In this document: positions 57,443-64,000 of the stretch, piece after piece | How positions within the stretch are numbered: position 1 is the stretch's first letter | Layout of the letters: each line of letters begins with the position of its first letter | NCBI GenBank assembly: GCA_943846685.1 | Contig: OX044363.1 | Span: forward strand, 496,001-560,000 | DNA: 64,000 bases | Direction: 5' to 3' | Source of the DNA: an uncultured Pseudomonadales bacterium | GTDB lineage: Bacteria > Pseudomonadota > Gammaproteobacteria > Pseudomonadales > Porticoccaceae | Notes under the pieces: generated by a model | Told to the model about the DNA's origin: nothing | Seen by the model: the letters and a program-made list of their open reading frames with translations, nothing else | Database searches by the model: none | Translations under genes and position numbers: made by a program

Positions 57443-58423
57443 ATGAATTTACAAAAGTTATCCCGTCTCGACCTTAATTTGCTGGTCTCTTTACAGGCAC
57501 TTCTTGAAGAAAAAAGTGTGACAAGAGCCGCAGAACGTCTGTTTATTACCCAGCCGGCGATGAGCCGAGTGCTACAACGGTTGCGCGATCAGTTGGATGA
57601 TCCGCTGTTTACGCGCACCGGTAATAAGCTGATCCCGACACCCAAGGCGCGAGATTTACAGCTGCGGCTGCCGAGCATGCTCGAAGATATTCTCGATATG
57701 GTCACCGAGGGTGAGTTTGATCCCGCCGCCTATGTTGGCGAAGTGACTATCGCGATTCCTGAATTTATTGCTATCTCGCTAGCCTCGCAGTTAACCGGCG
57801 TATTAAACAAATATGCCCCGGGCGTGGTGCTGTCGATCTCCAGTGAGACGGATTCTGTGGAAGGTGAATTGGCCGACGGAATTTTGGACTTCGCTATCGA
57901 TATTGAAAAAGATATCACCAGCGATATTACCAAGCGGCACCTGGCTATTTTTAGCCCGACGATCTGGATGCGCGAAGGCCACCCCCTGGCACAAAAATCC
58001 CGAGTAACCCTCAACGAAATTCTTGAGTACCCCTTTGTTCAGTACTATCTACTGATCGCCAAGCGAGTAAGTGCCAGAACTGATGCGCGTTTTGACCGCG
58101 CGTTGCGAGAGTTAGGGCGCAAGCGCAAGAAAGCTATGGTGACCAACCAGTTGATGACGGCCATTGAGACAATCTGCGATACAGATTGCCTGATGGTTGC
58201 AGCAAAGTTTGGTTCAGGAATGGAGCGCGAACTGCACCGGGTTGTCAGTAAGCGCTACCCGGCAGATCTGCCTCACGAGGGCACAGTTCCACTGGTTTTG
58301 CTGCAGCACAAGCGAACTCTGGGCTCACCCATGCATCGCTGGTTATCAGAGATTATTGTCGACTTGGCGACTGGCATGGAAGGTTCAGAGAGCCAACTAT
58401 TGCCACAGGACGAGCCTAGCTAA
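57443..58423 (+). CDS. LysR family transcriptional regulator (LeuO/NahR-like)
   Basis: 326 residues. The N-terminal winged helix is [53 protein letters not shown], which places it in the LeuO/NodD/NahR subgroup; a type-2 periplasmic-binding-like effector domain follows ([31 protein letters not shown]). The effector is unknown. It is divergent from the 40-residue peptide gene with the ATGCAT operator between them. In P. aeruginosa speD lies between osmC and coq7; here lysR and the two short transcripts occupy that place. Its stop overlaps convergent coq7 by four bases. Confidence 0.92.
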
Positions 58424-61319: not shown

Positions 61320-62752
61320 ATCTCACAGCCCACTATTTTCTGGTTCCGGCAGGACCTTCGTCTCACTGATAATCCCGCTCTGGTCGCCGCCTGCGAAGCC
61401 GGTACTGTTATTCCTGTGTATATTCATGAGGATGAGACTGATCAGCAGTGGCCGCTCGGTGGTGCCAGTCGCTGGTGGCTGCACCATGCGCTGGAATCAT
61501 TGAGTACACCAGTTTGCACGGCAAGCTCAATATTTTTCAGGGCGAGCCTCAGGCCATACTCGCAAAGCTAGCGGCGGAGAATAATGCCAGCCGGGTATAT
61601 TGGAACCGCTGCTATGAGCCCCAGAGTATTGAACGAGATGGACTGATTAAATCCAGTCTTAAAGAGGCTGGATTGGACGTGCAAAGTTTTAATGGTTCGC
61701 TGCTCTGGGAACCCTGGCAGGTTCTAAAGAAAGATGGCACCCCTTACAAAGTTTTTACCCCCTATTACCGCCGAGGCTGTCTGCAAAAGCCGGCACCAAG
61801 AAAGCCTCTGGCCGTGCCAGCCAAAATGCAGCTGCACAAACTTGAGCATAATTTAAGCGTCGCAGACTTGTCTCTACTGCCGGAAATAGGCTGGGATAAA
61901 AAGATGCACGAGCACTGGGATATTAGTGAAGAGGGTGCGAAAGATCGTTTGGATGAGTTTGTCTTTAACGGTATTCAGGATTACCGCGAAGGTCGTAACT
62001 TTCCCAATAAGAAAAATGTCTCGCGACTCTCACCTTATTTTCACTTTGGTCAGATTTCAGTCAACAGCGCCTGGTATGCCGCTAATGATGCGGCAGCGTT
62101 AATCGATAATGAAACCAATCTGGATACCTTTTTAAGTGAGTTAGGTTGGCGCGAGTTCTCCTATTATTTGCTCTACCATTTCCCGGCGCTGCCAACAAAA
62201 AATCTTCAGCCAAGGTTTGATGTTTTCCCTTGGGCGCAAGACACAGACGCAGAGTTACACGCCTGGCAAAAGGGTAAGACCGGCTATCCACTGGTCGATG
62301 CAGGAATGCGCGAGCTCTGGGAGACCGGCTATATGCACAACCGTGTGCGCATGGTGGTCGGTTCTTTTATGGTTAAGAATTTATTGATCCACTGGCACCA
62401 TGGTGAACAGTGGTTCTGGGATTGCCTGGTTGATGCAGATCTGGCCAGCAATAGCGCCAGTTGGCAGTGGGTAGCCGGCTGTGGTGCAGATGCAGCACCA
62501 TTCTTTCGCATCTTTAACCCGATTACCCAGAGCGAAAAGTTCGATAAACAGGGCGACTATATTCGCCGCTTTGTTCCTGAGTTGGCCAATATGCCTGCCA
62601 AGTATATCCATGCACCCTGGTTGGCGCCGGCGGAGATTCTCGCCGCAGCTGGTGTAGAAATTGATGTTGATTATCCAGCGCCAATTGTTGATATCAAAGA
62701 GTCGCGAGAAAGAGCCCTGGCCGCCTTTGCTTTTACAAAGAACAATCCTTAA
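61320..62752 (+). pseudogene. phrB: Deoxyribodipyrimidine photolyase, with ATC at the start position and a -1 frameshift
   Basis: Class I CPD photolyase using FADH and an antenna cofactor to repair UV dimers. The C-terminal 434 codons are open and complete, with the FAD-binding WQWVAGCGADAAPFFRIFNP, GYPLVDAGMRELWETGYMHNRVRM and INPITQSEKFD-like signatures. The first ~65 residues (SQPTIFWFRQDLRLTDNPAL to WWLHHALESLST) lie in another frame, from 61323. Going from that frame to the main one needs one extra base near 61500-61512. The expected start codon, 61320-61322, reads ATC, correctly spaced from AAGGA (61308-61312). Two defects suggest a decaying gene, or one poorly assembled. The GTG at 61448 only opens the downstream frame and would lack the antenna domain start. 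Confidence 0.8.
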
Positions 62753-63107
62753 TCAGCAGTAGTTATGGGCAATAACTACTGCGTCTACAATGTATCAATC
62801 TGGTGCGCTGGTAATTTCTACCTATTTTTTATAGTGCAAAAATAAAAAAACTAACAGTCTTAGTTATAAATTCCTTTTTAGAAAAATATAATTTCTTTTT
62901 CAAACCCACCTGATTCCTAGCAGTCTCCCGGTCTAAAGCATTAGCTTTACCGCTGGATAATTATTCCTTTCCTAATTGTTGGCACAGTTGTTGCTAAACC
63001 TGTCTCGTAATGTAAAAAATTATGCGCAGGCATTTAGTTAGCAGCAAAGATTTATTCTTTTAAATGCCTATTTTGTAAAGTCATCAAAAACACCTGGGAA
63101 GAGTTTT
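62753..63107. other. 355-bp intergenic region upstream of cynS
   Basis: AT-rich, no supported ORF. It contains, in order: an 11-bp-stem hairpin GCAGTAGTTAT/ATAACTACTGC at 62756-62782 just after the photolyase stop (no T-run), a TGGTGCG half-site at about 62801-62807, the 16-bp palindrome TAAAGC-ATTA-GCTTTA at 62934-62949, and a sigma54 promoter at 62979-62995. I see no full NtrC palindrome. Confidence 0.6.
62979..62995 (+). promoter_or_regulatory. Sigma54 (RpoN) promoter of cynS
   Basis: TTGGCAC-AGTTG-TTGCT matches the -24/-12 consensus YTGGCAC-N5-TTGCW in every core position, with the correct 5-bp spacer. Transcription would start near 63006, giving a leader of about 100 nt before the cynS ATG at 63108. 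Sigma54 dependence fits nitrogen-limitation control. Confidence 0.75.
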
Positions 63108-63548
63108 ATGCAAAAAATAGATTTAACAGAAATTATTTTTTCGATTAAAAAAGAAAAAGATTTAACTTGGCAGGCGATTGCCGATGCCATTGGAATGTCA
63201 GTGGTTTGGACGACCTCAGCTTGTTTGGGTATGAACAGCTGTAAACCAGAGGTTGCGGAAAAGCTTGTTGAATTCTTAGGGCTACCAGAAGAAGCCAAGT
63301 CAGTACTAATGGAATATCCGACCAAAGAATGGGATAAGGATGTGCCGCAGGATCCGTTGGTTTATCGACTCTACGAAGTTGTTGGTGTATATGGCGATAC
63401 CTTAAAAGAAGTTATTCAAGAAAAATTCGGCGATGGAATTATGAGTGCAATCGACTTCTCTATGGAAGTTGATAAAGAGGAAAATCCAAAAGGTGACCGT
63501 GTTATTTTGACGTTAAATGGTAAATTCTTACCTTACGCATCCTGGTAA
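63108..63548 (+). CDS. cynS: Cyanate hydratase (cyanase)
   Basis: 146-residue enzyme that converts cyanate and bicarbonate to ammonia and two CO2. The catalytic triad is intact: Arg87 and Glu90 in VYRLYEVV and Ser113 in MSAIDFSME, each nine residues before the E. coli positions 96, 99 and 122. The C-terminal domain GDGIMSAIDFSMEV and NGKFLPYASW are typical. Its upstream region has a sigma54 promoter; an FNT-family transporter gene follows after 83 bp. Cyanate use as a nitrogen source in marine bacteria fits this setting. Confidence 0.96.
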   Translation: MQKIDLTEIIFSIKKEKDLTWQAIADAIGMSVVWTTSACLGMNSCKPEVAEKLVEFLGLPEEAKSVLMEYPTKEWDKDVPQDPLVYRLYEVVGVYGDTLKEVIQEKFGDGIMSAIDFSMEVDKEENPKGDRVILTLNGKFLPYASW

Positions 63549-63631
63549 TCAATTGAAAGAAACAGGCAATCTAGCTATAGGGTTTAGATTGTTTTACAAA
63601 ATAATTTAATTTTAAAAAGTGAGAAAGTTTA

Positions 63632-64000
63632 ATGGCTTATATCGAACCAAGTGAATTCGTCACAAAGATGGTTGATTCAGGTGAACAAAAAGTATTTATG
63701 TCGACTAAAGATACTTTTATCAGAGCATATATGGCGGGTGCTATTTTAGGTCTAGCGGCTGTTTTTGCGATTACTGTCGCAGTTAAAACAGGTAGCTTAC
63801 TGGTCGGGTCCATACTTTTCCCGGTTGGCTTTATTATGTTGTACCTGATGAAATTCGACTTGCTGACCGGCGTGTTTACACTTGTACCCCTGGCATTTCT
63901 CGATAAGCGCCCAGGTGTTACCGGTAAAAGTGTTCTGCGAAATTGGGGACTGGTGTTTTTGGGTAATTTTGCTGGTGCCCTGACAACCGCTTTTATGGTC
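63632..64000 (+). CDS. Formate/nitrite transporter (FNT) family protein, N-terminal part
   Basis: The ATG at 63632 has AGTGAGAAAG upstream; the frame stays open for 123 codons to the window edge. At least three membrane helices are seen. FNT signatures: FIRAYMAGAILGLAAVFAI (first helix), LMKFDLLTGVFTLVPLAF (omega-loop L-x-G-x-x-x-x-x-P region) and NWGLVFLGNFAGALTTAF. FNT channels carry small monovalent anions such as formate, nitrite, hydrosulfide or bicarbonate. Next to cynS it could import cyanate or move bicarbonate, which is a co-substrate; this is inference. The remainder is off the window. Confidence 0.88.
   Translation, partial: MAYIEPSEFVTKMVDSGEQKVFMSTKDTFIRAYMAGAILGLAAVFAITVAVKTGSLLVGSILFPVGFIMLYLMKFDLLTGVFTLVPLAFLDKRPGVTGKSVLRNWGLVFLGNFAGALTTAFMV

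Follow-up and report, generated by a model that had tools for sequence, protein, structure and literature searches.

In Escherichia coli, the cynTSX operon is controlled by the LysR-type sensor CynR. A different arrangement has been described for the cynFABDS operon of Pseudomonas pseudoalcaligenes CECT5344, which is preceded by a putative sigma54 promoter, includes an ABC-type transporter, is induced by cyanate and repressed by ammonium, and depends on CynF, an essential, divergently encoded sigma54 activator of the Fis type (PMC6627978). The main text of that paper, supplements aside, mentions no palindrome, operator or inverted repeat (PMC6627978). In Nitrospira and Nitrososphaera, a channel gene of the formate/nitrite family (FNT) or nirC lies beside cynS, and the FNT protein has been proposed as a cyanate importer; the available portions of these papers treat neither sigma54 control nor a kinase neighbor (PMC10753782; PMC12342949).

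The locus considered here lies near the end of a 64-kb stretch of Porticoccaceae DNA (the window), part of a genome of 2.21 Mb (G000). It has the cyanase gene in common with E. coli cynTSX, whereas no CynR over the curated cut-off is encoded in its genome. As in cynFABDS, a sigma54-type promoter stands ahead of the cyanase operon, but no CynF is found and an FNT channel is encoded in place of the ABC-type transporter; with the Nitrospira and Nitrososphaera pairs it shares the FNT gene next to cynS (PMC6627978; PMC10753782; PMC12342949). Sigma54-driven cyanase operons being already known in Pseudomonas (PMC6627978), the window presents a new variant.

The cynS-FNT operon and its sigma54 core

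Table 1. Coordinates of features at the cyanase locus, numbered from the first base of the window.
Feature	Position	Strand	Basis
Weak NtrC-like box TGTATCAATCTGGTGCG, candidate enhancer only	62791..62807	+	Matrix scan
Sigma54 (-24/-12) promoter core TTGGCAC-N5-TTGCT, TTGGCACAGTTGTTGCT	62979..62995	+	Pattern scan and conservation in relatives
Predicted 5' leader of cynS mRNA	63006..63107	+	Inferred from core
cynS, cyanase, 146 aa	63108..63548	+	NCBIfam PRK02866 and TIGR00673 over cut-off
FNT channel gene (start)	63632..64000	+	PF01226

Cyanate_lyase matches cynS and nothing else in the genome. The cynS gene is followed after 83 bp by the gene of the 271-aa FNT protein, which ends 447 bases past the window, and both genes are intact. 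Directly 3' of the FNT gene is a terminator-like hairpin of 15 pairs with a T-run (L033:8469-8502), the one hairpin returned by a scan in which shuffled sequences gave 2.4 on average, weaker or stronger. It is likely to act as a terminator between cynS-FNT and the next gene, a PP2C/Ser-Thr kinase fusion (L033:8572-10287, past the window), and hence the transcript is most likely cynS-FNT. The kinase gene accompanies this FNT subfamily with or without cynS: among the best 80 loci of an FNT-protein search, FNT and kinase occur together in 72 and cynS in 39. Nothing on this pair was found in the literature, under search terms that were perhaps too narrow. In the related genome G059, the kinase gene (L034:8546-10259) is read in two overlapping frames, which reflects a frameshift or an assembly error. 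Within the genus of the window, the seven genomes with the FNT gene are the same seven that have cynS. Given that a NirB/NirD-type nitrite reductase, a molybdopterin nitrate-reductase-type protein and an ABC transporter are clustered elsewhere in the genome, the FNT channel may serve cyanate.

The core consensus of sigma54 promoters is TGGCAC-N5-TTGCW, with GG and GC elements at a fixed spacing. The sequence TTGGCACAGTTGTTGCT agrees with it at 11 of 11 positions and in spacing, with a gap of 112 bases to the cynS ATG; both the fit and the distance claimed in the initial annotation were reproduced. Exact TGGCAC-N5-TTGC occurs once in the 64-kb window, both strands scanned, against a mean of 0.08 exact matches per window for scrambled cores (n = 60 scrambles), and the number of one-mismatch cores is that of chance (6 observed vs. 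6.3 expected). Taken without its context, the core sequence is modest evidence; the evidence is strong because a core is conserved at the heads of related operons, as detailed below, and because it falls within the longest identical run in the alignment of the intergenic region with that of G059 (27 bp, positions 62976-63002, at an overall identity of 78.7%). RpoN control of cynS is well supported, and the motif is confirmed, at the level of sequence, as a genuine sigma54-type promoter. By the usual -12 numbering of the core, transcription would presumably start at about 63006, the value given earlier in the initial annotation. An attenuator or riboswitch in the predicted leader was considered and rejected; 62700-64000 gave no Rfam hit above the gathering score, and the predicted fold was no better than those of shuffled sequences (z 0.18).

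Conservation of the core and the sigma54 machinery

Cyanase is present in 17 of the 112 Porticoccaceae genomes, and four gene orders were found at these loci: cynS-FNT-kinase (G000, G059 and G064), FNT-cynS-kinase (five loci), FNT-kinase-cynS (G079), and ABC transporter-cynS (six loci, and also G086, whose contig ends inside the ABC genes); in G042, cynS sits at a contig end. An apparently poor conservation of the core, with three of the 17 loci at 10/11 or better within 600 bp directly 5' of cynS, was dismissed as the result of scanning the wrong position, since most of the other loci begin with a different gene of the cluster and have the core ahead of that gene. Ahead of the first gene of the operon, a core of at least 10/11 was found in 14 of the 15 testable loci, the window's included, and one of at least 9/11 in all 15, compared with shuffle means of 0.07 and 0.53, respectively, and none on the opposite strand; these 15 loci are not independent, G000 and G059 being near-identical, as are five of the six ABC loci, and the operon heads were assigned by gene order at a time when the core sites had already been seen. 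The two untestable heads are those of G086 and of G024, which lies at a contig edge and in which no core was found in the 223 bp present upstream.

Of the best 80 named loci of the FNT-protein search, 76 include 450 bp of upstream sequence, and a core of at least 10/11 was found in 20 of the 36 that have cynS and in 21 of the 40 that lack it (shuffle means, 0.22 and 0.15, respectively). Three of these loci repeat genomes of the family. Of them, L084 and L100 were retained in this count and excluded from the counts of ACGA boxes and enhancer classes given below, while L098, too short for the core count, was retained for the ACGA boxes and excluded from the enhancer classes.

Six perfect cores were found in the whole genome, compared with one for a reversed-pattern control. 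Four precede glnA (C1:289129-289144, minus strand), a type IV pilin gene, rpoN and cynS. The one just 5' of rpoN (C1:63511-63526) hints at autoregulation of rpoN. Another lies where the gene of a hybrid histidine kinase (at most 1148 aa) begins (C1:174568-174583), and the sixth, within an open frame of 265 aa, is probably a chance match. The presence of rpoN, on which the initial annotation had made its proposal depend, was established by an NCBIfam match over the cut-off. Eight matches to the sigma54-activator domain were obtained. The five weaker ones are AAA+ proteins of other types, including ComM/Mg-chelatase, Clp and MoxR. Enhancer-binding proteins account for the remaining three, namely NtrC, a protein of the PilR type and, as the third, another response regulator. 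All three have a receiver domain, and a domain search detected a PAS domain in none of them.

NtrC was identified with 729 bits against a curated cut-off of 620, and its gene, together with that of an NtrB-type kinase (PAS-HisKA-HATPase), lies beside glnA. Two NtrC-like boxes, with one mismatch each, are located at -123 and -153 from the glnA core, and another lies at -105 from a 9/11 core at the NtrB-type kinase gene. Based on this cluster and on the boxes at glnA and the kinase gene, the NtrC circuit of the organism looks complete. The cynS gene resembles glnA in having a perfect -24/-12 core with the same NtrC available, but differs in its upstream region, where glnA has its two one-mismatch boxes and cynS a single weak one at -189.

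Candidate boxes for CynF and NtrC

Some relatives, among them the closest to the window's operon, encode a divergent CynF-like activator that combines PAS and sigma54-interaction domains with an HTH domain of the Fis type; it was identified with Pfam in two relatives and by tblastn in the others. Thirteen such CynF-linked loci were collected (L085, L088, L110, L116, L117, L128, L133, L037, L038, L039, L047, L048 and L049), among them those of Alteromonadales and relatives, namely an Alteromonadaceae MAG, Catenovulum, Colwellia, Psychrosphaera and Psychromonas (L085, L088, L110, L116, L128 and L133). The operons of the Alteromonadales type are like that of the window in their order, cynS and then FNT, and their CynS and FNT proteins group with those of the window in trees; however, they have the divergent cynF and the ACGA boxes that the window does not, and a head core of 9 or 10 of 11. 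The seven CynF-linked named relatives score 9 or 10 in this respect, compared with 11/11 in the window.

A palindrome defined in this analysis, ACGA-N4-TCGT, was found near -120, -98 and -81 from the sigma54 core at all 13 CynF-linked loci; nine have three exact boxes, three have two exact and one mismatched, and the remaining one has one exact and two mismatched. By comparison, an exact box was found in one of 79 loci without a detected CynF, that one being L118, a short contig covering 256 bp upstream of cynS. The palindrome is a likely operator of CynF. A CynF-like protein is encoded in 27 of 369 sampled genomes of the class. Thirty such loci were read, of which nine are flanked by cynS, FNT or a cyanate-type ABC binding-protein gene; an exact box was found at seven of these nine and none at the other two. 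ACGA-N4-TCGT was also found somewhere at seven of the 21 loci without a cyn-type flanking gene, so its occurrence may extend beyond cyanate genes.

None of these elements was detected at the window's locus. No CynF match at E <= 1e-100 was obtained from a search of the genome in which three of eight candidates were scored, no divergent cynF lies beside the operon, and the 450 bp upstream contain no ACGA-N4-TCGT box with one mismatch allowed. The genes upstream of cynS are, we presume, a photolyase-type gene and purD. Nor was a CynR found over the curated cut-off anywhere in the genome, the CynR model matching six LysR-type proteins with at best 147 bits against 277; no control genome exceeded the cut-off either, which makes the absence less certain. 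The LysR gene at 57443, about 5 kb upstream, was rejected as CynR at 51.6 bits. The lack of a CynR-type sensor asserted in the initial annotation thus holds as far as these searches reach.

NtrC-like boxes were defined as TGCAC-N7-GTGCA with at least 8 of the 10 outer bases, located 60-200 bp 5' of the core. The count by enhancer class comprised 91 rows, of which 17 without a core of 9/11 were set aside (12 without and five with cynS). NtrC-like boxes were found at 42 of 61 loci without CynF vs. one of 13 with CynF (Fisher p 6e-5), and ACGA boxes, at the same loci, at one of 61 vs. 13 of 13 (p 1e-13); these p values are optimistic, related loci not being independent, and the CynF state changes at least four times on the CynS tree. 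With regard to position, the interval from -130 to -75 relative to the core contains an NtrC-like box in 31 of 56 loci without CynF; control windows of equal width gave 0/52, 2/55, 10/55 (the adjacent -200 to -145) and 2/55. Three loci from the window's own genus (L040, L041 and L043) have all ten outer palindrome bases at -109 to -111.

At the threshold of 8 of 10, the locus of the window counts as box-less. A weight-matrix search for NtrC sites, as had been suggested in the initial annotation, did yield a candidate at 62791, the top match in the 600 bp 5' of cynS (10.6 bits with a matrix built from the boxes of relatives and three boxes of this genome itself), but it has 7 of 10 bases and lies 189 bp 5' of the core, compared with about -110 for the boxes of relatives, and 4-8% of stretches of this genome score as well. 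When the matrix was built from relatives only and applied to null windows drawn from 12 other stretches of the genome, the box was equaled or exceeded in 21 of 513 (4.1%) at a width of 300 bp and in 21 of 253 (8.3%) at 600 bp, so that it does not stand out clearly from chance. In G059, 16 of its 17 bases are kept, a conservation that does not exceed chance either (P 0.087), and it scores 8/10 there.

Activator and origin of the operon

The initial annotation had proposed that cyanate use is switched on by nitrogen shortage, through RpoN and an enhancer-binding protein, rather than by a cyanate sensor. The involvement of RpoN is supported, but a sigma54 promoter alone does not imply nitrogen control, because 13 related loci pair such a promoter with a CynF-type activator, and because the CynF operon of Pseudomonas is both induced by cyanate and repressed by ammonium (PMC6627978). 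The reading that we hold to be rather probable is that the sigma54 promoter drives cynS and FNT, with phosphorylated NtrC switching the operon on. Sigma54-RNA polymerase would bind at the core and require an enhancer-binding protein, a role most likely taken at the three ACGA-N4-TCGT boxes by CynF in the nearest relatives of the operon, and in the window by NtrC, the general nitrogen-shortage activator, which may act at the weak box at 62791. Elimination and comparison make NtrC the most likely activator, since CynF and its boxes are absent, the genome has just three enhancer-binding proteins, and relatives without CynF mostly have NtrC-like boxes. The start site, NtrC binding and the nitrogen response of cynS are predictions read from DNA.

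Another enhancer-binding protein, either the third response regulator (C1:1671971) or the PilR-type protein, could act at a genuine sigma54 promoter in place of NtrC; both have the receiver, AAA+ and Fis-type HTH domains, and the NtrC-like box of the window is weak. This is nonetheless unlikely, with the gene of the PilR-type protein adjoining that of a PilS-type kinase and the type IV pilin gene having a perfect core of its own, the third protein being encoded next to a UDP-sugar dehydrogenase gene, and the relatives without CynF having NtrC-type boxes as frequently as noted above. It is less probable still that the core is a relic, the operon being read from an unrecognized sigma70 promoter or hardly at all. 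The missing CynF and boxes and the weakness of the substitute enhancer would fit such decay; however, the core is better matched to consensus than those of the seven CynF-linked named relatives and is embedded in the longest run shared with G059, cynS and FNT are intact, and a simple scan of 62700-63700 found no sigma70-like site. Slightly less credible than a relic is a regulator that responds to cyanate but resembles neither CynF nor CynR, such as a distant LysR protein, acting alone or with sigma54. The six LysR-type matches leave some room for one, but none reaches the CynR cut-off, the one encoded near cynS is at about 50 bits, and LysR proteins are not known to activate the sigma54 holoenzyme.

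The question of origin was approached through trees. In the best tree of CynS and FNT combined, the operon of the window is nested among CynF-linked Alteromonadales loci on two starred branches, and the best CynS tree has the same nesting among CynF-linked loci on an unstarred branch; this nesting suggests that the operon was transferred and that CynF was lost in the lineage of the window. However, a separate clade of CynF-linked loci was not rejected by the AU test (p 0.077 for CynS and 0.4 for CynS with FNT), the group tested having been named only after the tree was seen. A wider reading, which we consider possible but less likely than not, is that in marine gammaproteobacteria cyanase operons are served by two interchangeable sigma54 circuits. 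One would be dedicated to cyanase, with CynF acting at three phased ACGA-N4-TCGT boxes at about -120, -98 and -81; the other would be the general nitrogen circuit, marked by an NtrC box about 110 bp ahead of the core. The operon of the window would have arrived as a CynF type and lost its activator and all boxes, with the core retained and NtrC taking control.

The presence of CynF or NtrC boxes 5' of the sigma54 core could serve as a simple rule for predicting the control of many cyanase operons from DNA alone, and the window may offer a natural case in which an activator was exchanged and the promoter kept. If NtrC control is true, this marine bacterium would degrade cyanate as part of the general response to nitrogen hunger and not upon the appearance of cyanate, which would bear on the timing of cyanate consumption in the sea.
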